Shown here piece after piece: positions 39,299 to 52,184 of a DNA stretch of 64,000 nucleotides; within the stretch, counting starts at the first letter, position 1; the number at the start of each line of letters is the position of its first letter. The DNA is taken from contig JAGSHN010000012.1 in NCBI GenBank assembly GCA_029855935.1, positions 62,001 to 126,000 on the forward strand, given 5' to 3'. The stretch comes from Candidatus Thorarchaeota archaeon (lineage in GTDB: Archaea; Asgardarchaeota; Thorarchaeia; Thorarchaeales; Thorarchaeaceae). The notes below the pieces were generated by a model that had not been told where the DNA came from, made no database searches, and saw only the letters and a program-made list of their open reading frames with translations. Made by a program: the position numbers and the translations under genes.

Positions 39299-41392
39299 CT
39301 ACTCTCCTGCGCTCTCGTCAACACCCCGTGAGCCTCTGAGGTAGGCCCTGCGCTTCAGATAGACGAACACAGCGAGCAGTGCCACGATAGTTGTCACGGA
39401 AACGGGTGCGACACTGTCCACCCAGTGCCTGTGGGGATTCCAGTCCCAGTTGTCAGGTATGAGGTCGCCATCGGTGTCGGTGCTGGTGGGCGACATATAG
39501 TGATACACTTCGAATGCGTCAGTCCATCCATCGCCGTCCGTGTCCACAGAGAGAGGGTTGATGTGGTTGAGAATCTCGAACAGGTCGTCGAGCCCATCAC
39601 CGTCAGTATCGATCGATGTCGCGTTCAGTCCCGTGGCTATCTCAAAGGCGTCATCGAGTCCGTCGCCATCGGTGTCAGCAGATAGAGGATTGGAGTGGTA
39701 GACGTAGATCTCCTCATAGTCACTGATACCATCACCATCGGTGTCCGTCAGTATTGGTGATGTGCCGAGTGCTGCCTCCTCGCCATCGGTGATGTTGTCT
39801 CCGTCAGAGTCCTGCAGCACCAGACTTGACCCCCACTTGTATTCATCCGAGTCGAGGGCACCATCGTGGTCCGAGTCCCTCTCACGTGGGTCGCTGCCAA
39901 TCGCTATCTCAAAGTCGTCCTCGAGTCCGTCCGCGTCAGAATCAAGCCGGTAGGGATCGAGCCCATTGTCCACCTCATAGGTGTCACTGAGTCCGTCCCC
40001 GTCCGCATCATCGAGGCACGTGACATTGGTGTGCGCCACAATCTCATCCGGCCCGAGGTTACTGATGACAAGTCTGTACTGGCCCGGCGAGTTGGCGAGG
40101 TACTTGAGATTGATGAGGCCGTCGTTCTCTGTTCTCTCGTAGACAGTCCTGCCCGTCGATACACTGACAATCCTTGCATAGACTGTTGCATTGTTCTGCC
40201 ACGTCACAGTCGCATTGACAAAGCCATCAACGCTCACAACGAATCCGAGATCCGCTGTGCCGTTCACGGGGAGTACGCGTGACCTCCAGAAGGATAGGAT
40301 ATCACCATCACCTGCTCTTCCGAGCAGCATAATGGCACCTGCTGCGGAGGCCACGGCCTCTCTTGCCTTTACAAAACTGTAGTAGAGCTCGTCCGCATCG
40401 TCGTCTATGCCCCCGCTGAGGCTGTCATAGAAGTATCCCTGAGAGGCATAGACGGCCGAGGTATTCCTGTTCCAGAGTTCCCAAGCGAGAGAGTGTTCCG
40501 AATATCCCCTGTCCATCGCGCTGTGCACCATTCCTGCACCGACATCGGCCGACATGACAATCATGAGGTCAGGAATCCAGCTGGTCCTCTGATAGATGTT
40601 GGACTCCAAGCGCGACCTGAGAAGCACCTGAGTACCGTATGGGAACTGGCTCCTGTGAAAGAGCAACCGGTCATACGATATCGCCGTCAGTATCTCCGTC
40701 CCCTGCCCGTCGAGCATCTGGACAAACTCCGCTGCTCCCGGGTCGTGGTCATAACCTGCCCTACCCGTACTGCTGAGGACATAATAGACATCGCAATGCA
40801 GTGAGAGATTGACCAGAATCCTTGCGGTCTCCAACACTGCTGCGACGCTGACTCCAACGTCGTTAGCACCAGGTGTATCATACCGACTGTCGAGTATACC
40901 TGTGACAAGGACCGCTGGTCGCGGCGACGGCCCGATCCCGGTCTGTACTGCGTATAGTGTCTGGTACTGGCCCGTGGTCCCGAACCAGAGTCTACCTTGG
41001 GTGAGGGCATTGAGCGTCGTGTTGACCCATTGTTGGGCCGCTGAGAGCATTGTTGATGGCCTGTCATGCTTGATGTCCCAGGTCCGTGACCCGTACGTCG
41101 AGGCGAGGGTATCGGTGAGATCGTGCATGGAGGTTTCCGAGGAGACATTCCAGATATCCTCCCACAGTGCTGTCACGTTGATGAACGATGCTCCTGCACC
41201 GGCAAGGTGTCCTGTCCACGCTTTCTGTGGGCTCCCCTTTGTATCGGTCATATAGTATCGATCTACATTCTTTGTGGTGTTTCCGAGCGACATCGCCATA
41301 GTCGCACCCAGAATGGTGACAAGTACAACAGCGACTACGACTATGTGATGGGGACGCGAAACAACTTGTCGTGAATCGTACTCGTCGCGCAA
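39299..41392 (-). CDS. Surface protein A: degenerate M28-peptidase domain plus TSP3 repeats
   Basis: 697 aa. One helix at 15-36, an M28-like domain (about 75-360), a beta-sandwich (about 375-460), about nine thrombospondin-type-3 calcium repeats (461-650) and a C-terminal helix (662-680). In M28 enzymes the zinc motif is H-x-D...GANDN and later EE-x-GLxGS; here it reads SRYDTPGANDVG (His to Arg170, Asp178 kept) and STGRAGYD (both glutamates lost). It is therefore probably not an active peptidase. It is anchored outside the cell and likely stiffened by calcium. Paralog of the next gene upstream on the same strand. Confidence 0.8.
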   Translation of the reverse strand: MRDEYDSRQVVSRPHHIVVVAVVLVTILGATMAMSLGNTTKNVDRYYMTDTKGSPQKAWTGHLAGAGASFINVTALWEDIWNVSSETSMHDLTDTLASTYGSRTWDIKHDRPSTMLSAAQQWVNTTLNALTQGRLWFGTTGQYQTLYAVQTGIGPSPRPAVLVTGILDSRYDTPGANDVGVSVAAVLETARILVNLSLHCDVYYVLSSTGRAGYDHDPGAAEFVQMLDGQGTEILTAISYDRLLFHRSQFPYGTQVLLRSRLESNIYQRTSWIPDLMIVMSADVGAGMVHSAMDRGYSEHSLAWELWNRNTSAVYASQGYFYDSLSGGIDDDADELYYSFVKAREAVASAAGAIMLLGRAGDGDILSFWRSRVLPVNGTADLGFVVSVDGFVNATVTWQNNATVYARIVSVSTGRTVYERTENDGLINLKYLANSPGQYRLVISNLGPDEIVAHTNVTCLDDADGDGLSDTYEVDNGLDPYRLDSDADGLEDDFEIAIGSDPRERDSDHDGALDSDEYKWGSSLVLQDSDGDNITDGEEAALGTSPILTDTDGDGISDYEEIYVYHSNPLSADTDGDGLDDAFEIATGLNATSIDTDGDGLDDLFEILNHINPLSVDTDGDGWTDAFEVYHYMSPTSTDTDGDLIPDNWDWNPHRHWVDSVAPVSVTTIVALLAVFVYLKRRAYLRGSRGVDESAGE
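39420..40010 (-). repeat. TSP3-type calcium repeat array in surface protein A
   Basis: Repeats of about 22-24 codons with the core D-x-D-x-D-G-x-x-D (DTDGDG, DSDGDN). The DNA repeats imperfectly, for example the unit for DTDGDGLDD occurs several times. Confidence 0.85.
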
Positions 41393-41411
41393 CTGTCTGT
41401 CCTCCCGCGGC

Positions 41412-43400
41412 TCATCCTCCTCGATTGTACCGTATCTTCTTCACTGCCAGCCAGATGCCCACCAGCACGGTGACACCGAGCGCGACCCAGGTCGGTATCT
41501 CCTGTGTCCACGGTATCTTTGGATCCCAGTCCTCTCCGTCAGGTATGGAGTCCCCATCAGTATCGTTGTTGAAGGGCAGTAGTCCATTCTCAACCTCATA
41601 CAGGTCGGTGAGACCATCCCCGTCGGTGTCATTTGACAGGGGGTCGAGACCATTGAGCACCTCGAACAGATCTGTCAGGCCGTCACCATCCGTGTCCGCC
41701 ACGAGGGCACTTGTGTTGTGCTCAATCTCCAAGGAGTCTATGAGACCATCCCCGTCGGTGTCATCATTTAGCGGGTCGAGGCCCATCTCAAGCTCTGTGG
41801 CATCGTCGACTCCATCGCCGTCGGTGTCGGTTGACAATGGGCTGAGACCATGCTCTATCTCAAAGCCATCCTTGAGAGAGTCCCCATCGGTGTCGACCAA
41901 CCACGGATTAGACCCTATCATCACCTCGACGTAGTCGGAGGCACCATCCCCGTCCGTGTCTGGTGACCGTGGGTTCGTGCGGAGTTCGTATTCTTGATCA
42001 TCGGTCAGATTGTCGGCGTCGGTGTCGGGTGAGATGGCATCGGACTTGAACAGGTACTCCGTTCCGTCATCGAGGCTGTCCATGTCAAAATCGTGATATT
42101 GCGAGAACGAGTAGTCTACTATTGCGCTGGCGTTCCCCGTATTAGTCACCTGAAACGTATAGATGCCGGGTGCCTGAATATCTGCTGTGATGACGAGGCT
42201 GCCGCTGTTGGATGTGCCCTGTCCTATGTCATTCCCCTGGGGATCCACTATGTGTGCTGCAAGCTGCGTCCCGCTCGTCCATCCCAAGGCGAGTGTCAAC
42301 CGCGAGACACCTGTAAGCGGCATTGTTCCCGCCTCGGTGTAGTTAGTCCCAATTGACATCTGGCCCGCGAACGCAATCTCCCTCCCTGTTCCAAAGTTAC
42401 CTAGCATCCATGTCAGGGAGGCGACGAGGCCCACCGCCTCTGCTGCCTGCGCGTAGTCGTATCTCGCGTTGTTCCAGTTGTCGTCATCCGTCGGGACATA
42501 GTAGTAAGGCTGGCTCAATACGAAGCTCGGGACACCCGCATTGGTGCCATCATACGCACCAGTACGTGTCCATCCTCCTGCTGGTGCTGGACTCTTTGTC
42601 GTGAATCTTGCACCCGCGAGATAGGAGGCCCGTACGGCCACCTCGCCCATGAAGTCCACATTCTGAAAGCCCGAGTCGTGATAGTTCGATACAAAGAGCA
42701 GTCCAGCCGGGGAGCTCGCCTCATGATGCAGGAGTGTCGAAAACCAGAAGATTGCAGCAGGCCGTCTTCCCTCATCAATCAGCTGGTTCATGAACGTCCG
42801 GAGTCCCAGATTCCCACTACTCCCTGAACCATAGCCTGTGGTGATGGTGTTGGTGAGAACAAACATCACATCGTTTGTCAGCGGATATTGATAGAGTAAT
42901 CTGGCTGTCTCGACGACGGCTGCCGCTGAGGCGCCGAAACCATTTGCTCCAGCAGTGTATCTCGATGCAATTGTACCGGCAATGATGATTGGTGCGCGAT
43001 TGTCGGTTGTCCCGTGCAGGACACCGACCAGTGTCTCCTCCACCGTTTCTCTGTCAAAAGCGATATGATTGTCTGTGGCATTTCTCATTGCCTCATCGAT
43101 ATACTCCCACGCGCCCGCGAGCGGGTCTGATGGCTTCCGGTCGAGAGGATACCACACTCTCTGAGGATACAGCTCGGAGAGGTCCTTCACGATAGTCCTG
43201 ATCCGGTCGACACTCACGTCGTCAAATATGCTCTTCCAGACATTGTTGACCTTGGTCGTGGCACTAACCACAGAGTGCCGATACGGCACGGCGCGTTGTG
43301 TGTTCAGCTCTGTGACCACACCAGCCTGATGAAAAATGAAACCAACTCCGAGAATCAGTAGTAGTCCCAATGCGAGGACCGCGCCGTTCCGAGGGCTCAT
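41412..43400 (-). CDS. Surface protein B: degenerate M28-peptidase domain plus TSP3 repeats
   Basis: 662 aa with the same architecture as protein A: helix 8-25, M28-like domain (about 55-340), beta-sandwich, seven to eight thrombospondin-type-3 repeats (about 430-635) and a C-terminal helix. Degeneration is greater: [11 protein letters not shown] lacks both the His (Arg147) and the bridging Asp (Gly154), and the EE pair is TNTITTGYG. Protein A starts 19 bases downstream, so the pair is one operon arising from a duplication. The fold may bind peptide or glycan without cutting it. Confidence 0.8.
41520..42090 (-). repeat. TSP3-type calcium repeat array in surface protein B
   Basis: Runs of DTDGDGxxD units about 22-23 codons apart, often followed by [12 protein letters not shown]-like linkers. 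Protein-coding repeat. Confidence 0.85.
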
Positions 43401-43473: not shown

Positions 43474-43995
43474 TCACCGCAGCTCCTCAGCGTGCTCCAG
43501 TATCAGATTAGCCACAAGTTCTGTGTTGTCAGGTGAGACCACTCTCCACCCCTCCAGCCTCTCGTCCTCTGCTACATCTTCGTCGCAGACTATGGCCACA
43601 ATTCTCTTCACTGCGGGCGGTGGAGGAACTGCCTCCCCCCTGATGCACCACAGACGAGGTATCGGCTCTCTCTTCATCCCCTCAATGATCACTATATCGG
43701 CGTCGAGACGCTCCACAATCTCCCTGAGCGGCAGCCTCTGCCTCCATCTCATCGTTGTGACGCTTGGGCCAACCAGTGCAGTGCCACTGGCACCTGCCTC
43801 CCACAGTCTCCTGGTGTCAGTTCCTGCCTGCGCCAAGACATCCTCGTTGCTGCTCTTCACAGCCGCTACGCGAACACCTCTCCTCATCAGCTCAGGTATC
43901 ACTCTCTCCAGCAGTGTGGTCTTGCCGGATCCCGAGAGGCCGGATATTGCAAACACCCGTTGCGATGACGAGTTCCGAATGGTCCTGTGGGTCAT
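43474..43995 (-). CDS. mobB: Molybdopterin-guanine dinucleotide biosynthesis protein B
   Basis: 173-aa P-loop GTPase-like protein. Walker A GLSGSGKT at 19-26 follows VFAIS, and IVIIEGMKREPIPRLWCI is the MobB switch-like motif. In bacteria it assists MobA in attaching GMP to molybdopterin; here it suggests molybdenum or tungsten enzymes elsewhere in the genome. ATG 43995 is chosen since TATA-like TTTTTAAGG lies at about 44025-44035 (minus strand); the longer ATG at 44145 would overlap the divergent ABC gene. Confidence 0.88.
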   Translation of the reverse strand: MTHRTIRNSSSQRVFAISGLSGSGKTTLLERVIPELMRRGVRVAAVKSSNEDVLAQAGTDTRRLWEAGASGTALVGPSVTTMRWRQRLPLREIVERLDADIVIIEGMKREPIPRLWCIRGEAVPPPPAVKRIVAIVCDEDVAEDERLEGWRVVSPDNTELVANLILEHAEELR

Positions 43996-44072
43996 ACCAC
44001 CAGCTCGCGGTGTTGCTCCAGTAGGAACCTTAAAAATCGGTTTATCTTGGTCACAGGGCGGAGAGAGCTCCT

Positions 44073-44855
44073 TTGGCCAATGACATTGACAACGACATTG
44101 CGGTTCTGTGTCAGGATGTTCATCGAGACTTTCAGGACGGCTCACGAGTGATTCGTGTCCTGCGGGGGACCGACTTGGAGGTCCGAAAGGGTGAGTTCGT
44201 TGCCATAGTGGGCGCCTCGGGCTCCGGAAAGACTACTCTCCTCAATCTCATTGGCGGACTGGACCGGCCGACAAGCGGGAAGATATTCGTCGATGGCATC
44301 GAGATAACGGCGCTGGACGACGAAGAGATGGCTGAGATGCGGCGCAACAAGATTGGGATCCTGTTTCAGGATCAGTACCTGCTGCCTGTCTTCACAGCGC
44401 TCGAGAACGTCCAGGTGCCGATGCTGTTGAACGAGGTGAGGGCCAAGGAGCGAGAGCGACGTGCTATGGAGCTACTCAAGGCCGTCGGTGTCGACCACCG
44501 TGCGCACCATATGCCTCACGAGCTCTCCGGCGGAATGCGGTCAAGAGTCGCTCTCGCGCGTGCATTGGCAAACGATCCTGCTATTCTTCTCTGCGATGAG
44601 CCGACTGGCGACCTCGACCACAAGACCGGGGGCGAGATAATCCGGCTGATGCGTGACCTAGCCAAGAAACACAACCGCGCAGTCCTTGTCGTCACCCACG
44701 ACCCGGAGGTGGCAAGGATGGCGGACCGCATCCTCCTACTTCGTGATGGCAAGCTTGTGGAGGAGCTAGTGAGCCGTTTCTTCAAGCCCAGTGGCGTCGA
44801 TGTCACCGTAGCTCGCGACCCGGACTCTAGGAGTTCCGCACCAACAGAGGGGTGA
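44073..44855 (+). CDS. ABC ATPase 1 of the four-gene FtsX system
   Basis: 260 aa of LolD/MacB type. Walker A GASGSGKT 47-54, signature LSGGM with R-S-R following, Walker B LLCDEPTGDLD and H-loop VVTHDPE. Starts with TTG 44073 after GGAGAG. The permease 1 start overlaps the following ribosome binding site four bases after its stop, so it is co-translated. It energises permeases 1 and/or 2. Confidence 0.92.
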   Translation: MANDIDNDIAVLCQDVHRDFQDGSRVIRVLRGTDLEVRKGEFVAIVGASGSGKTTLLNLIGGLDRPTSGKIFVDGIEITALDDEEMAEMRRNKIGILFQDQYLLPVFTALENVQVPMLLNEVRAKERERRAMELLKAVGVDHRAHHMPHELSGGMRSRVALARALANDPAILLCDEPTGDLDHKTGGEIIRLMRDLAKKHNRAVLVVTHDPEVARMADRILLLRDGKLVEELVSRFFKPSGVDVTVARDPDSRSSAPTEG

Positions 44856-44859
44856 TGCC

Positions 44860-47742
44860 TTGAGTAGCGGAGGTCGAAGGACCCCACGGGGCAACCGGTT
44901 CTACTCCCTCTCATATGCTCTCGAGTCTATCAGGTCCTACCCATTCAGGGCACTGAGCCTTGCCATCACGCTGAGCCTGGGCCTCTCGCTCATCGGCTCT
45001 GTGCTCATATGGGCTGACACAGGTGTTCAGGTCAGTGTGAACAACTACTTTGACAACACGGCCTTTCAGATGCTTGTCGAGGCTCCGCCGGGGCAGGAGG
45101 CGATACTCTCTCAGGCCGACCAGTATGCAGCGTCGAGCAGTCTGGTCAAAGACACGTTCAAGATAAACTCCACAATCGGGCTGGTCTATGGCAGCCGGCT
45201 GCCCAATGACACAGTCTACGGACTGGATGAGCCCCTGTATTCGTCGGGGATGAAGGACTGCCAGGTCCTCTTTGTTGACAATCAGTTCCTCGAAACGGCG
45301 CGACGCAGCTTTCTTGTTGATGGTGAGTTCTCTCTCCGAGAGGGTGAGGCTCTTGTCTCGGTACAGTTCCTGACGTATGTACACCAAGTATATGGCATAA
45401 CTCTCACGGTCAACTCCACATTCGACCTTGAGCTATTGATGAACGCTCCTGCAGGTCCCTCTGGACCCATTGGGGATATGTCACGGACAAGCCTGCGCGA
45501 TCTGCGGATAGTCGGTGTCTACGAGGTTCTGGGGTACAACTCTCTCATCGAGCAGGCCTTTCCCTCCATTATGCGTTCAAACTATGCCTATGTCCACTAC
45601 GACACTCCTGTGCTAGGCATCCGTGACAGTGTGATGATCCTGTCCGACAGTGTTGACACCTCTGGCATTGAGGAACATGGGTTCTTCAGGCCGCGGCTCT
45701 TCATACGGGCCTCGCCAACAGCGCTCGTCGCCGCGGGGCCCGACAAGATTGCCGAGAATCTTCTCACACTAAAGGCCCGCCTTGAGGAACAGTTTGATGT
45801 CACCGTCTACGGTCTAGGCGAGATTCTCTATCTCCAGCGCGTGGTCGATACCTATCGTGATACGACCCCTCTGATCTCTCTCAACCTACCTCTCTTCATT
45901 CTTGCAATGTTTCTCTCGGTGTTCGCGGCAGACACCTTTATGGCTGCACGCAGGACCGAGGTGAGCGCTCTTCGCTCCAAAGGCGCAAGTTCGGGTCAGA
46001 TCTATGGTATATTCGTTGTAGAGTCCGCCCTGATGGCCATCGTCAGCGTGGTGTTCGGGATTACTCTCAGCGTAGTCTTTGCTGCTCTAATTCCCTCAAG
46101 CGTCGCATTTCTGCAGTTCGACTGGGATGTCTATCAATTCTATCTTCAGAACACAGTACTCACTCCTACGGCTCTGCTGTACTCCACTCTCTTCTGTATA
46201 GTACCACCCCTCCTCTTCATTGTCTATGCTGCGAGAAAGGCCACCCGCGCTGAGATCGGCGTGATGATGGTCGAGGGTACCGAACCTATATCAGAGGGCG
46301 ACGAGGGCAACCGGTTCACACTGGGAATCTCCCTGTTCCTTCTTGCGATGGTGCTCGGTGCCGCATTACTCCTCCCCGCGGACCCGCTCCTCATATCGCT
46401 GGAGCTCGGTCTGGGGACTGCAGCATGGTTCTTTCTGGCATACAACGGCTCACGAGTCACACGTATCGGATTCGCCAACATCACCTCGCGGCTGGCCTTT
46501 GTTCTCGGGGAGAAGAACATAGTGGCCGCCGGGAACCTGAAGATGCGGAGGGGCCGCATCGTTCCACTAATGGTCGTTCTGGTACTCACGCTCTCCTCTA
46601 CAGTCGCCTTCACAGTCCAGGCGACAACATTTCAAACGGACCTGTCAAAGGAGGTCCGCTATGCTGTCGGCGCGGACCTGAGAGTGACCACAACATCAAA
46701 ACCCTTCAATTTCACAAGGACGATCTCCAGCTATCCGGGCGTCGATGATGCAATGGCCGTGCTACAGACGTGGGGTGGGATCAACAATGAGATAATCTCA
46801 ATAGAGGCACTCGACCCGCTGAAGTATTCCGACTTGGGATACTTCGACCAGTCCAGTTTCAACGGTGAGGACCCAGAGGCGATACTGGGACAACTTGCCC
46901 GTGTGGAGAACGGAATTCTGATGAGCAAGTATCATGCCGACCGCTGGAACAAGACGATCGGCGATACAATCACCCTCACCGTCGGCGGCCGTCTTGCAGC
47001 TGTGAGCATCACATTCGTCATCGTGGGTCTTGTCCACACGGCTCCGGGATTCGGGTACGCCTCCATTGCTGATGCCCCGTCGTCCAGGCTCGGTGCTGGC
47101 TTTGGTCTGCAGGCGCCTCACGGTGGCTTTGCAATAGCGAATCTTGAGTTTGTGTCTGCCCAGACGGGTATCAATACCGCCCGTCTGTTCTTCGGCGACC
47201 TCGTGACAGTGAGCGACACAACTCTTCTTCTCAGGTCGCTCAACGACCTCCCGGGCGTGTCAGCGACCACTCCCGAGACCTTCAACCTCTACAGTCATTC
47301 CTTTGGTACAGCCCTCTTCCTGAGCACGGTAGAGGGCCTGTTCTCCATCGGTTTCACCATGTCGTTGTTGCTCAGTATATTCTCGCTGACACTCTTCTTG
47401 GGATCGATAGTACGGGAACGACGTCGTGACTATGCGATACTACGCGCAGTGGGAGCCTCAAGGAAGCAGGTGATACGTGTGGTCCTGGCCGAGTTTGTGG
47501 GCGTGGTTCTCGCCTCCCTGACCCTCAGTCTCATCTTGGGGATGGTCTTCGGCTATGTCCTCAGTATAGTGGTATTCTCCATGAGTCCGTTCTCACGGAT
47601 GCTTGCACCAGTCATTGTTGTTCCTGTCGGCTTCCTGACTGTTGTCGTTTTGTTGGAGCTGGTTGCGATGGTGGGTGGCTCCTATCTCCCGGCGAAGGAG
47701 GCTGCGAAGACGGATCCTGCAATCGTGCTCAGAAACTTGTGA
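44860..47742 (+). CDS. Giant FtsX-type permease 1
   Basis: 960 aa. Opening helix (about 30-52), a large extracellular domain (55-335), three helices with FtsX signature (about 340-475), a further pair of helices (about 490-530), a second ectodomain, and three C-terminal helices (about 825-955). Full symmetry of two FtsX modules gives ten helices, like long MacB/YknZ-like permeases. TTG start with GGGGTGA before it. Pairs in sequence and length with permease 2, with which it shares RTEVSALRSKGAS-like coupling helices. Confidence 0.9.
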   Translation: MSSGGRRTPRGNRFYSLSYALESIRSYPFRALSLAITLSLGLSLIGSVLIWADTGVQVSVNNYFDNTAFQMLVEAPPGQEAILSQADQYAASSSLVKDTFKINSTIGLVYGSRLPNDTVYGLDEPLYSSGMKDCQVLFVDNQFLETARRSFLVDGEFSLREGEALVSVQFLTYVHQVYGITLTVNSTFDLELLMNAPAGPSGPIGDMSRTSLRDLRIVGVYEVLGYNSLIEQAFPSIMRSNYAYVHYDTPVLGIRDSVMILSDSVDTSGIEEHGFFRPRLFIRASPTALVAAGPDKIAENLLTLKARLEEQFDVTVYGLGEILYLQRVVDTYRDTTPLISLNLPLFILAMFLSVFAADTFMAARRTEVSALRSKGASSGQIYGIFVVESALMAIVSVVFGITLSVVFAALIPSSVAFLQFDWDVYQFYLQNTVLTPTALLYSTLFCIVPPLLFIVYAARKATRAEIGVMMVEGTEPISEGDEGNRFTLGISLFLLAMVLGAALLLPADPLLISLELGLGTAAWFFLAYNGSRVTRIGFANITSRLAFVLGEKNIVAAGNLKMRRGRIVPLMVVLVLTLSSTVAFTVQATTFQTDLSKEVRYAVGADLRVTTTSKPFNFTRTISSYPGVDDAMAVLQTWGGINNEIISIEALDPLKYSDLGYFDQSSFNGEDPEAILGQLARVENGILMSKYHADRWNKTIGDTITLTVGGRLAAVSITFVIVGLVHTAPGFGYASIADAPSSRLGAGFGLQAPHGGFAIANLEFVSAQTGINTARLFFGDLVTVSDTTLLLRSLNDLPGVSATTPETFNLYSHSFGTALFLSTVEGLFSIGFTMSLLLSIFSLTLFLGSIVRERRRDYAILRAVGASRKQVIRVVLAEFVGVVLASLTLSLILGMVFGYVLSIVVFSMSPFSRMLAPVIVVPVGFLTVVVLLELVAMVGGSYLPAKEAAKTDPAIVLRNL

Positions 47743-47752
47743 GGTTGGACAG

Positions 47753-50659
47753 ATGACGACCAAGACACAACGACCCATCTATAGAGGCAACCCCTTCTGG
47801 GCTATCTCCTATGCGTTCACCTCGCTACGGAACTATCCCCTACGCAACATGGGCATTGCACTTGTTCTTGCCATAGGTGTGGCGCTTCCGACCACCGTCT
47901 TTGTGTGGTCGTCGACGGGGACAAACATGGTCACCCATCAATACTTTGAGACGCACTCTTTCCAGATGGCAATGCTACCTGACGCCGGAGAGAACTTTGA
48001 GTCCTCTCGTATGGGTGATGCGATGACTGAAGTCACGGCAAGTCCCTACATTGAGGCCGCCCACCTTGTCCCATCAACCATCGGCATCCTCGCGGGCGGT
48101 GTGTTCCCTGAGTGGTCGCAGTACGATATGACTGGGCAGGTGTATCGCGACGGAATGAAGGACATGCGGGTGATGCTCGTCACGAACGACTTCCTCTCAA
48201 ACGCCTCAGTGGACTTTGAATACAATGGCACCTTCCATCTTGACCCCGGACAGGTCCTTGTATCAGAGAACTTCATCACCTACACCGAGCAGGTCTACAA
48301 TGTGACTCTGACAATTGGGAGCACTATTAGTTTCGACCTGTTGCAGCTAGGTTCTCACGCAACAGCTGGTGATCCCAATAGTCTTGGTGCAGTGCGCTTC
48401 TCCAATCTCGTCATTGCTGGCATATATCGCAGTCCGACGAAGCGTCTGTTGGTGACTCAGGTATTCCCCTCGATGTCGCGGAAAAACTGGGATCCGATGA
48501 GCCTCTACACGGAGCCTGTGCTTGGTCTGGCAGACTCGGTGATGATGCTACAGAGTGATGCAGGTGAGGCCGTCATAGCGAACGTCCGCAACAGGGGCTT
48601 CTTCGCTCCTGTCGTCTTCCTGAGGGGATCTGTCGAGGGTCTGATTGAGGGTGGTGTGGGAGCAATCGGGGCACATCTCGTGTCCGTGCGAGAGCAGCTC
48701 TCAGAGGCCTACCCCAAGATAACAATCAAGGGTCTATCAGAGATCTGGAGCCTTGATGCGACGATTCGCACCTACCTCGAGAGCCAGATACTGACGATAA
48801 TTGTCTTCCCCGTCCTCATCATGAGCCTAATGCTCACTGTCTTCACCTCTGAGACGTCCATCGCCCGACGGAAGGGTGAGATAAGCGCTCTTCGTGCGAA
48901 GGGGGCATCCTTCAATCAGGTCTTCTCAACCTTCATGTGGGAGTCTCTCGTCCTCTCAGTCCTTGGATTCGTCATTGGAGTGTTCCTCGCGCTACTGATG
49001 GCTCCGCTGGTGGGATCTGCCAGTGGTCTTTTCCAGTTTGACCGGACTATGATGACCGAGTTCGTCAAGTATCTCACGATTCCCCCACTTGCGCTCGTAA
49101 TTGCTGGTGCACTGGCAATGTACCTCCCCGCGTCATATCTTCTGCACGTGGCACGCAGGATTGATGTTTCAGAGGTAGGCCAACCAACGGCCAATGTGCC
49201 TGATGAGGAGACCGAGGAAACAAGTGTCCTCCGATACGCGGTGGGGCTGTCGCTCGTTCTTGGCTTTCTCCTCGCTCTTCCAGAGATCATGGCGCCTCGC
49301 GGTGCGGCAGCCATCGGTGAAATCGTCCTCACGACGCTTCTACTCTTTGTGGCCTCCTACTTCGGCTCGAAGACGATGCGATACGTAACATCACGGTTGT
49401 CCGGTGGCACCAATTTCCTGCTTGGTGAAAAGGCTCTCTATCTCAGCCGGAGCCTGCGAAAGCGGAAGGCACAGTTCATACCGTTGCTGGTCATTCTAAC
49501 ACTCACCCTGACCACTACGTCGATGATGATCATCCAGTCATCGAGTTTCCGGGCCACCCTAGACCACGAGATTGGCTATGCCATTGGTGCTGACCTACGA
49601 GTGGAGGGTGATGTTCTCCCTGTCGAGTTCAACAAGTCCATCCTGCAACAGCCCGGCGTGTACAGGGTGACACCAGTGTTGCAGTCCATTGGGTCGGTGG
49701 GCTCGAACACATTCTTCCTAGAAGGAATCGATCCGCTCAACTACTCCAAGATAGGCTACTTCACTCAGGACAGCTTTGTCAGCGGTACTGCCCAACAGGT
49801 TTTGTCCGCCCTAGCTGAGACGTATGCGGGCATCATCATCAGCGACTTCTACTCTCAGCTATGGAACCGGAGCATTGGGGACTCTGTCACAATGACGTTC
49901 TCGATGGTCAATGGTACGAGGACAATGGACTTCGAGATCGTCGGAATAATGCGCAGTGCTCCCGGTTTCGGGATGGCATCGGTCACAGATCTGCCCGGCC
50001 GCTCCTTCGGCTCGCAGTTGGGCTTTCAGGTCGTCGGGGAGGGATTCGCTCTGGTCAACCTTGATTTCCTCTATCGTGAGGCGTACATCCACACGGCAGA
50101 CTTGTTTCTAGCAGATGCCGTTGACTTTGCGAACATCACAGCGGCGATAGAGTCGATTCAGGCATTGGGTCAACTGGATGTCTACTCCCCACTCACGTTC
50201 GACATTGCCGCACAGTCGTACTCGATAGACCTCTTCCTGTCCGGCATAAACGGACTGACTATCATCGCCTTCGTGCTGTGTGCGTTGATGGGTCTCTCAG
50301 CAATCGCACTGTTTCTCGGCTCAGCAGTTCTGGAACGGAAGTCGGAGTATGCCATCTTTCGTGCACTCGGCGGGACACGTCGCCAGGTGGTGTCCATAGT
50401 GTTCGGTGAGTTTGCAGGGACAGTGGTGGCAGCGATAGGCATCAGCATCCTGCTGGGTCTTGTGTTCGGCTACTCGATGAGCCTGCTCACGTTCGGGATC
50501 TCCCCCTTCTCGCCCATACTTCCGGAGGTGCTGTCCTTCCCGTTGCAGATAATGGGATTGACCATACTGGCCGAGAGTGCCGTAATGATTCTCAGCTGTT
50601 ACATTCCCGCACGTCGAGCAGGGGCAGTGGACCCCGCCGTCGTATTGCGGAACCTGTGA
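47753..50659 (+). CDS. Giant FtsX-type permease 2
   Basis: 968 aa, paralog of permease 1 with the same order of helices and ectodomains. The coupling segments match (RKGEISALRAKGASFNQVF versus RTEVSALRSKGASSGQIY) and both end in DPA-x-VLRNL. GAGGT seven bases before ATG 47753 overlaps the stop of permease 1; the longer reading from 47642 lies in another gene's coding frame and is rejected. Permeases 1 and 2 probably form a heterodimer. Confidence 0.9.
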   Translation: MTTKTQRPIYRGNPFWAISYAFTSLRNYPLRNMGIALVLAIGVALPTTVFVWSSTGTNMVTHQYFETHSFQMAMLPDAGENFESSRMGDAMTEVTASPYIEAAHLVPSTIGILAGGVFPEWSQYDMTGQVYRDGMKDMRVMLVTNDFLSNASVDFEYNGTFHLDPGQVLVSENFITYTEQVYNVTLTIGSTISFDLLQLGSHATAGDPNSLGAVRFSNLVIAGIYRSPTKRLLVTQVFPSMSRKNWDPMSLYTEPVLGLADSVMMLQSDAGEAVIANVRNRGFFAPVVFLRGSVEGLIEGGVGAIGAHLVSVREQLSEAYPKITIKGLSEIWSLDATIRTYLESQILTIIVFPVLIMSLMLTVFTSETSIARRKGEISALRAKGASFNQVFSTFMWESLVLSVLGFVIGVFLALLMAPLVGSASGLFQFDRTMMTEFVKYLTIPPLALVIAGALAMYLPASYLLHVARRIDVSEVGQPTANVPDEETEETSVLRYAVGLSLVLGFLLALPEIMAPRGAAAIGEIVLTTLLLFVASYFGSKTMRYVTSRLSGGTNFLLGEKALYLSRSLRKRKAQFIPLLVILTLTLTTTSMMIIQSSSFRATLDHEIGYAIGADLRVEGDVLPVEFNKSILQQPGVYRVTPVLQSIGSVGSNTFFLEGIDPLNYSKIGYFTQDSFVSGTAQQVLSALAETYAGIIISDFYSQLWNRSIGDSVTMTFSMVNGTRTMDFEIVGIMRSAPGFGMASVTDLPGRSFGSQLGFQVVGEGFALVNLDFLYREAYIHTADLFLADAVDFANITAAIESIQALGQLDVYSPLTFDIAAQSYSIDLFLSGINGLTIIAFVLCALMGLSAIALFLGSAVLERKSEYAIFRALGGTRRQVVSIVFGEFAGTVVAAIGISILLGLVFGYSMSLLTFGISPFSPILPEVLSFPLQIMGLTILAESAVMILSCYIPARRAGAVDPAVVLRNL

Positions 50660-50719
50660 GGAGGACATAGACGTGAGACTGCGCAGCTCAATAACCTTAA
50701 CTGTTCATTTCTGGCGGAG

Positions 50720-51751
50720 ATGTGTGATGGCCCTATGACCGTGACAGAACAGATAGACTACTATCACGACTTCCCCGACGATGTCGTCGTCAGTGTCGAC
50801 AACGTCTACAAGATCTACAAGACCGCAGAGCTGGAGGTCGTCGCCCTCAGTGGAGTCTCGCTACAGATTCTTGAGGGTAAGATAATGTGCGTTGTCGGTC
50901 CGTCGGGTTCTGGCAAGACAACTCTGACAAATATCATAGGTGGCATCACCAAGGCCACCGTGGGAAAGGTCTACTGGGCCAATCTCAGGACCGATATCAC
51001 CAAACTGCCCGAGCGCGTATTGACAGAGGCGCGGAGAAACTTCATTGGGTTTGTCTTTCAGGTCAACAATCTGCTGCCGCATCTCAATGCCTGGCAGAAT
51101 GTGGAGCTGGCCGCAAGGATTGCTGGTGTTCCACGTCACGTCCGCAAGGAGCGCGTTGACAGGCTCATCAAGCTGGTAGGCCTGGAGGAGCGAAAACGTA
51201 ACAAGGCAACAACACTCAGCGGCGGGGAGCGCTCTCGTGTGGCAATTGCCAGTGCACTTGTGAACCTGATTGACACCGAGGGCAAGGGACTCGTTCTCTG
51301 TGACGAGCCAACTGGCGACCTCGACCCCGAGACAGCAGAACGTATTCTTGAGCTGTTTCAGGAGCTAAACGAGACGCTGGGGACCTCCTTCTTCATCGTG
51401 ACTCACAGCCAGCAGGTTGCATCGAAGGCCGACATCACTGTGGAGATTCGAGATGGTATCATCTCAGGATTCCATCAGGCTGGCATCGACCTGGACACGC
51501 TCGACCACACTCGCATTGTGAAGCTGGACAACAACTATCGTCTGCCGATGCCGCTAGACCTGCTTGAGAAGGCGGGCAACCCGACAGAGTTCAGGATCAG
51601 CTACGAGGATGGGAGATTCATTCTTGAGCCTCAGCGTGGTGAGATGGTCGACCAGCTCCGAGAGCGTCAGACCCGGAGATGCAGAGTCTGCGGGCACGAG
51701 ATACCCCCGGGAAGCTACATCTGCAGCAACTGCGGCTCGACCATCCGGTGA
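50720..51751 (+). CDS. ABC ATPase 2 fused to AbrB-like domain and zinc ribbon
   Basis: 343 aa. ATPase part: Walker A GPSGSGKT 60-67, signature LSGGE 166-170, Walker B LVLCDE 191-196, His229. Beyond the ATPase, residues 263-304 (HTRIVKLDNNYRLPMPLDLL and GRFILEP) have the look of an AbrB/SpoVT swapped-hairpin domain. A zinc ribbon follows (Cys321, Cys324, Cys335, Cys338). ABC transporter ATPases rarely carry either part. The tail may bind DNA or dock a partner, linking transport to gene control. ATG 50735 is an alternative start. Confidence 0.88.
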   Translation: MCDGPMTVTEQIDYYHDFPDDVVVSVDNVYKIYKTAELEVVALSGVSLQILEGKIMCVVGPSGSGKTTLTNIIGGITKATVGKVYWANLRTDITKLPERVLTEARRNFIGFVFQVNNLLPHLNAWQNVELAARIAGVPRHVRKERVDRLIKLVGLEERKRNKATTLSGGERSRVAIASALVNLIDTEGKGLVLCDEPTGDLDPETAERILELFQELNETLGTSFFIVTHSQQVASKADITVEIRDGIISGFHQAGIDLDTLDHTRIVKLDNNYRLPMPLDLLEKAGNPTEFRISYEDGRFILEPQRGEMVDQLRERQTRRCRVCGHEIPPGSYICSNCGSTIR

Positions 51752-51761
51752 TGCAGGCCTA

Positions 51762-52184
51762 TCAGGGCGGTCTGGCATCCGCGTGACGATAGATTGAGAT
51801 CAGTTCCTCGATGCACCTAAGGTTCGCCATCAGTGCGCGTATTCTCAGCCTAAGACGCCGGTTGATACGAATGTGTTTCCGCTCGAGATGTCGCTCCACT
51901 GTCTGATCGAGGTCGATTCCCTCTTGGTCAAAGTCTGTCAGGATGAGGACAGAACCACGCTCTCCCAGTGTCTCGGCCACTCTGTCGATGGTTTCCTCGA
52001 TGCTGCGTCCCGTGTGAAGGCGCACGATGCGCGATGTCACTCCCAGTGCCCGGAGGACTGACTCGTCCCTCTTGCCCTCTACCAGCACGAGCATCTCAGG
52101 GTACTGCGTGCCAAGGCTGGACAAGAGTTCTATCAGTTTTTGCTCGTTCCTCTTGAGCCTACGAGGTCTAACCGCTGGTGCCAT
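51762..52184 (-). CDS. Small Toprim-domain protein
   Basis: 140 aa. The Toprim signature is seen as Glu36 in VLVEGKRDESVLRALG and Asp84-x-Asp86 in LILTDFDQEG, the metal-binding residues of primases, topoisomerases and RNase M5-like nucleases. Nothing else is fused, as in the archaeal short Toprim proteins of unknown role. The N- and C-termini are basic. Convergent with the ABC operon; transcribed just after the alcohol dehydrogenase direction-wise upstream gene. Confidence 0.85.
   Translation of the reverse strand: MAPAVRPRRLKRNEQKLIELLSSLGTQYPEMLVLVEGKRDESVLRALGVTSRIVRLHTGRSIEETIDRVAETLGERGSVLILTDFDQEGIDLDQTVERHLERKHIRINRRLRLRIRALMANLRCIEELISIYRHADARPP

Follow-up and report, generated by a model that had tools for sequence, protein, structure and literature searches.

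The four-gene ABC operon and its neighborhood

In the window analyzed here (a 64,000-nucleotide stretch of a Thorarchaeia (Asgard) genome assembly of 2.97 Mb), four co-directional open reading frames at positions 44073-51751 of the plus strand encode, in this order, an ATPase (A1), two large permeases (P1 and P2) and a second ATPase (A2), with intergenic gaps of approximately 4, 10 and 60 nt (Table 1). The initial annotation had described a co-directional unit of two FtsX-type permeases (960 and 968 aa) and two distinct ATPases, and this description holds: the reading frames are as described, the Pfam profile PF02687 matches P1 and P2, each in two stretches, PF00005 matches both A1 and A2, and these components are conserved. 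Two of the gene starts deserve comment. The longest ORF of P2 begins upstream of the ATG, at TTG 47642, and translation of A2 may actually begin at Met6 (50735), because the A2 homologs mostly align only from residues 4-9.

Table 1. Genes of the operon and predicted regions of A2 (coordinates refer to the window)
Feature	Coordinates	Strand	Description
ATPase A1	44073..44855	+	260 aa; LolD/MacB-type NBD, without tail domain
Permease P1	44860..47742	+	960 aa; ~10 TM, two FtsX domains
Permease P2	47753..50659	+	968 aa counted from ATG; two FtsX domains
ATPase A2	50720..51751	+	343 aa; NBD, AbrB-like domain and zinc ribbon
A2 NBD	50783..51463	+	residues 22-248; catalytic motifs intact
A2 linker	51443..51508	+	residues 242-263; pattern E..DG......H...IDL..L
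A2 AbrB/SpoVT-like swapped-hairpin half	51509..51634	+	residues 264-305
A2 C4 zinc ribbon	51674..51742	+	residues 319-341; C321, C324, C335, C338

Both nucleotide-binding domains (NBDs) are of the LolD/MacB/FtsE type, with LolD and MacB as the nearest sequence families, and in both the Walker A motif, Q-loop, LSGG signature, Walker B glutamate and H-loop are all intact. A2 is the most conserved gene of the operon (83-91%, versus 52-67% for the permeases). Hydropathy analysis of P1 and P2 reveals 10-12 segments, TM1 and TM7 each being followed by a long gap, and both proteins display the unit typical of FtsX, namely TM1 followed by an outside domain and TM2-4; the nearest families of their FtsX domains are LolC and ADOP, and the YbbP equivalog model scores only 17.4 and 15.7 bits for the two permeases, far under its cut-off of 999. 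YbbP itself spans the membrane with 10 TM, has a large outside domain behind each of TM1 and TM7, and binds two copies of YbbA (PMC12646458). Each of the ~960-aa permeases is a fused pseudo-dimer with the YbbP topology, and therefore two NBDs are needed per permease.

Divergent from the operon, two adjacent genes (39299-43400, minus strand) encode secreted or membrane proteins (697 and 662 aa) that contain TSP3 repeats and, in one of the two, a Peptidase_M28 match; elsewhere in Thorarchaeia (L166, L167, L173 and L174), pairs of similar size are likewise found next to the operon. The ORF at 43474-44145 (minus strand) encodes a MobB-type protein (PF03205, 90 bits); its listed start overlaps the A1 start on the opposite strand, and the true start is probably internal to this ORF. 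Convergent with A2 is a gene (51762-52184, minus strand) for a protein of 140 aa, which matches Toprim weakly and below the threshold.

The C-terminal tail of A2

Residues 242-343 of A2 extend past the NBD. For this region, the initial annotation had proposed a 42-residue AbrB/SpoVT-like segment followed by a four-cysteine ribbon, both to be sought by profile search; the ribbon was recovered with Pfam and the AbrB-like segment with an Asgard-wide profile, whereas a Pfam search with the single A2 sequence, either the whole protein or the tail, yielded no AbrB match (PF04014 or PF02381) at the gathering score. The ribbon, with the spacing CX2C-X10-CX2C, scores above the Zn_Ribbon_1 (PF13240) cut-off of 25 bits (25.4 for whole A2, 27.7 for the tail alone). 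Its four cysteines are invariant in 38 of 38 diverse homologs, as is H252 of the linker, and the residues between the cysteines vary.

The Asgard-wide profile of the AbrB-like segment matched stand-alone Asgard AbrB proteins in a profile-profile comparison with 93.5% probability (E-value 2.4e-7), compared with a maximum of 0.44% among ten column-shuffled decoys. The convincing match comes from the Asgard-wide profile only; a profile built from Thorarchaeia tails alone gave a weak match to AbrB (24%). A sequence search of the PDB with the tail reached AbrB at an E-value of ~0.3 with the first alignment and mainly ribbons with a wider one. An AlphaFold2 model of the tail monomer, of moderate confidence (mean pLDDT 73.7, pTM 0.41), retrieved AbrB, MazE, SpoVT and AbrB-fold archaeal proteins as the top 13 matches in a Foldseek search of the PDB, with probabilities of 0.66-1.0 and E-values of 0.03-0.65, none below 0.001. 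Taken together, the profile and the model indicate that this domain of A2 is shaped like half of an AbrB barrel. In its AbrB-like half, R265 and P278 are invariant in the 38 homologs, and where synonymous distance is saturated, identity remains at 85-89% in the linker-AbrB part and at 67-93% in the ribbon.

Distribution of the fusion and paralogous modules

A survey of genomes for the same fusion had been suggested along with the initial annotation. The first tail profile had matches in 105 of the 228 Asgard genomes at E-values of 1e-4 or lower, some of them to the ribbon only; counted by hand, with strong full-tail matches alone included, the full tail is present in 96 of the 228 genomes, which represent seven families. 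These comprise 44 of the 47 genomes of the family to which the window belongs (f1), all 23 of f18, and members of f9, f15, f20, f22 and f27. The counter-case set out beforehand, namely a tail that lacks AbrB similarity in profile searches and is absent in all homologs, is thus not what the genomes contain. The full tail was not found in ~165 other archaea, in 250 archaeal relatives of genome G308 (a set that may overlap the former) or in 250 Bacillota, the single bacterial phylum surveyed. The weak non-Asgard matches that were inspected (in G308 and G378) turned out to be ribbon proteins without an ABC domain and were discarded. The NBD-AbrB-zinc fusion is old and conserved in Asgard. The open-access literature that we searched, outside of which most subscription journals fall, held nothing relevant on an AbrB-ABC ATPase fusion or on AbrB in Asgard or Thorarchaeota.

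The four-gene organization noted in the initial annotation is borne out for Thorarchaeia; in families f9, f15, f18, f20 and f27, the module mostly consists of A1, a single permease and A2 (in two f20 loci A2 lies in the opposite orientation, and one f9 locus has an extra FtsX permease downstream). The four-gene version is a Thorarchaeia elaboration of the three-gene module. The permease was probably duplicated in the Thorarchaeia lineage, because P1 and P2 share 35% identity with each other, compared with 31% and 28%, respectively, with the f9 permease. In the NBD phylogeny, the tailed A2 ATPases form one clade (99/93) and their A1 partners another (100/99); the pairwise distances among A1, A2 and the permeases correlate with r of 0.86-0.89, values that are inflated by common species history.

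The same genome encodes a second A1-P-P-A2 operon (operon B; contig C6, L206 3154-10560), in which the tail of the A2-like ATPase carries a textbook AbrB signature, DAKGRIVIPEAVRRLAGL, lacks the ribbon and retains the AbrB arginine pair. Tails of this type (tail B) showed sub-threshold Pfam matches to MraZ and MazE_antitoxin in four members (E-values 1e-4 to 2e-2), with the best sub-threshold scores for PF04014 and PF02381 reaching 22.4 and 22.2 bits; relative to tail B, the AbrB signature of the A2 tail (tail A) is eroded. Operon B was detected in 38 of the 47 f1 genomes and, in other families, as one weak match only. The paralogous B ATPases form a single clade (100/100), the sisterhood of which with A2 is weakly supported (88/51). 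A third type of tail is found in two f20 loci (L225 3156-4130 and L226 1508-2464), where an ABC ATPase combines a canonical AbrB motif (GRITIPEEL) with a C4 ribbon; these genes stand behind an FtsX-type ORF, and in L225 an FtsX permease precedes the gene. These f20 ATPases bridge tails A and B.

The permeases next to tailed ATPases are not always of the FtsX type. Some of the tailed ATPases in f18 and f22 adjoin genes of the oligopeptide-permease type instead; in L153 and L154, AbrB-zinc ATPases lie beside oligopeptide-permease genes, and in L145-L148 their neighbors are small multi-TM proteins together with a binding-protein-like gene, with neither A1 nor an FtsX permease adjoining in any of these loci. 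These neighbors count against a universal pairing of tailed ATPases with FtsX permeases, and therefore the tail goes with the ATPase lineage and not with one permease type. A third ABC locus of the same genome (L212 5400-6284, contig C4) was considered as another copy of the module and rejected: its ATPase is related but has a coiled-coil-like tail, a further type within this genome, and adjoins large ORFs, with no second ATPase visible.

A tentative model of the module and its alternatives

With two NBD genes for one fused permease in a module, the simplest reading is a mixed pair of NBDs, in which A1 and A2 probably sit together on the same permease; gene order and the NBD clades agree with this reading. 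Alternatively, each of the two ATPases could act as a homodimer. Under the mixed-pair reading, A1 and A2 would close on ATP and move the large outside domains, by mechanotransmission. AbrB hairpins fold as interleaved dimers, so the A2 tail would most likely dimerise in the cytoplasm and join A2 to another A2; in Thorarchaeia, such a tail dimer would perhaps link the P1 and P2 complexes. The zinc ribbon would provide a docking surface, and the tail might gate or couple the ATPase, in analogy to MetN or MalK, whose C-terminal domains are regulatory. We accordingly favor a role of the tail as an oligomerisation, regulatory or docking module; the complete model, with a mixed A1/A2 pair on a fused permease and a dimerising A2 tail that gates or couples the ATPase, we hold with about as much confidence as doubt.

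Docking of a cytosolic partner, the other role raised in the initial annotation, is in its strict form a somewhat unlikely alternative: the sole task of the tail would then be to dock one particular enzyme or chaperone of the cytosol which delivers or receives the substrate, dimerisation being incidental. The invariant residues of the ribbon and linker region (H252 and R265) are compatible with such a role, ribbons are common protein-protein interaction modules, and the association of tailed ATPases with different permease types fits it as well; nevertheless, in the families examined, no conserved soluble partner gene was recognized beside the module.

A role of the tail in transcription, as suggested in the initial annotation, is weakened on closer inspection. 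AbrB folds and ribbons often bind nucleic acids, and the canonical motif, GR[IVM].IP....RR or similar, is present in tail B and in the third, f20 tail type. The arginines proposed as DNA contacts in AbrB are R8, R15, R23 and R24 (PMC4022651). In the A2 tail, the equivalent of R15 (R274) is retained in 34 of 38 homologs and the R8 position is partly retained, but the R23 position carries a hydrophobic residue in all 38 and the R24 position is for the most part acidic or polar (E, Q or D), so that the full R8/R15/R23/R24 set of DNA-binding AbrB regulators is lacking. The mean net charge of this tail type is -0.9, compared with +1 to +4 for tail B and 0 to +4 for stand-alone AbrB proteins. With the R23/R24 pair lost and the domain being neutral to acidic, classical AbrB-type DNA binding by the A2 tail is unlikely, though the ribbon or other faces of the tail may contact nucleic acids. 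Overall, an AbrB-zinc tail with DNA- or RNA-binding activity, by which the ATPase would inform transcription about the state of transport or of the envelope, or would anchor nucleic acid at the membrane, appears quite improbable. A broader proposition, to which we assign a slightly better though still low likelihood, is that, in an Asgard-specific membrane machine, a repurposed AbrB-zinc module of one of the two ATPases either binds nucleic acid or yokes two permease complexes into one unit, and thereby directly couples what happens at the cell surface to transcription or to a cytoplasmic assembly of higher order.

Finally, that the tail is a structural remnant which stabilises A2 and has no role of its own would agree with the eroded AbrB signature and the variable residues between the ribbon cysteines but is very unlikely, considering that the tail is retained on one ATPase clade in seven families, with the cysteines, H252, R265 and P278 invariant, and is little changed at saturated synonymous distance.

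Implications and comparison with known ABC systems

In the characterised FtsX-type ABC machines compared here, a single ATPase is present in duplicate; the old Asgard module has two diverged ATPases, and one of them bears a domain that is mostly encountered in transcription factors and antitoxins. Should the tail join or gate transporters, as in the model favored here, this would be a new mode of regulation for the FtsX-type class of ABC systems; should it bind nucleic acid, DNA or RNA would be a direct target of a transporter subunit. Few envelope machines have been characterised in the closest archaeal relatives of eukaryotes, and a conserved Asgard module is a useful target.

Among the known C-terminally extended ATPases, MetN, MalK and ModC share with A2 the principle that a regulatory domain is attached C-terminally to the NBD, but they belong to importer families and have unrelated tail folds; in a fold search with full-length A2, MetN does appear, but the resemblance is confined to the order of the domains (rmsd 11-12 A). 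With the swapped-hairpin domains of AbrB, SpoVT and MazE, the A2 tail shares the fold and the sequence pattern, but in A2 this domain sits behind an ABC ATPase and is followed by a ribbon, and the DNA-contact arginine pair is lost.

By its sequence affinities, the Asgard module as a whole can be assigned to the FtsX/MacB/LolCDE (type VII) kind of ABC machines. LolCDE and MacB resemble it most closely in sequence, with LolD and MacB being the nearest families of the NBDs, and LolC and ADOP those of the FtsX domains. In LolCDE, one ATPase occurs twice, and in MacB, ATPase and permease are fused; to our knowledge, neither system carries a C-terminal tail domain of the A2 kind. The YbbAP-TesA system of E. 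coli, also of type VII, shares with the Asgard module the permease topology and separate LolD-like NBD subunits, although the sequence similarity of the permeases to YbbP is weak. Unlike YbbAP, which employs two copies of one tailless ATPase, the Asgard module employs two different ATPases, one of them with an AbrB-zinc tail, and in Thorarchaeia has two permeases.
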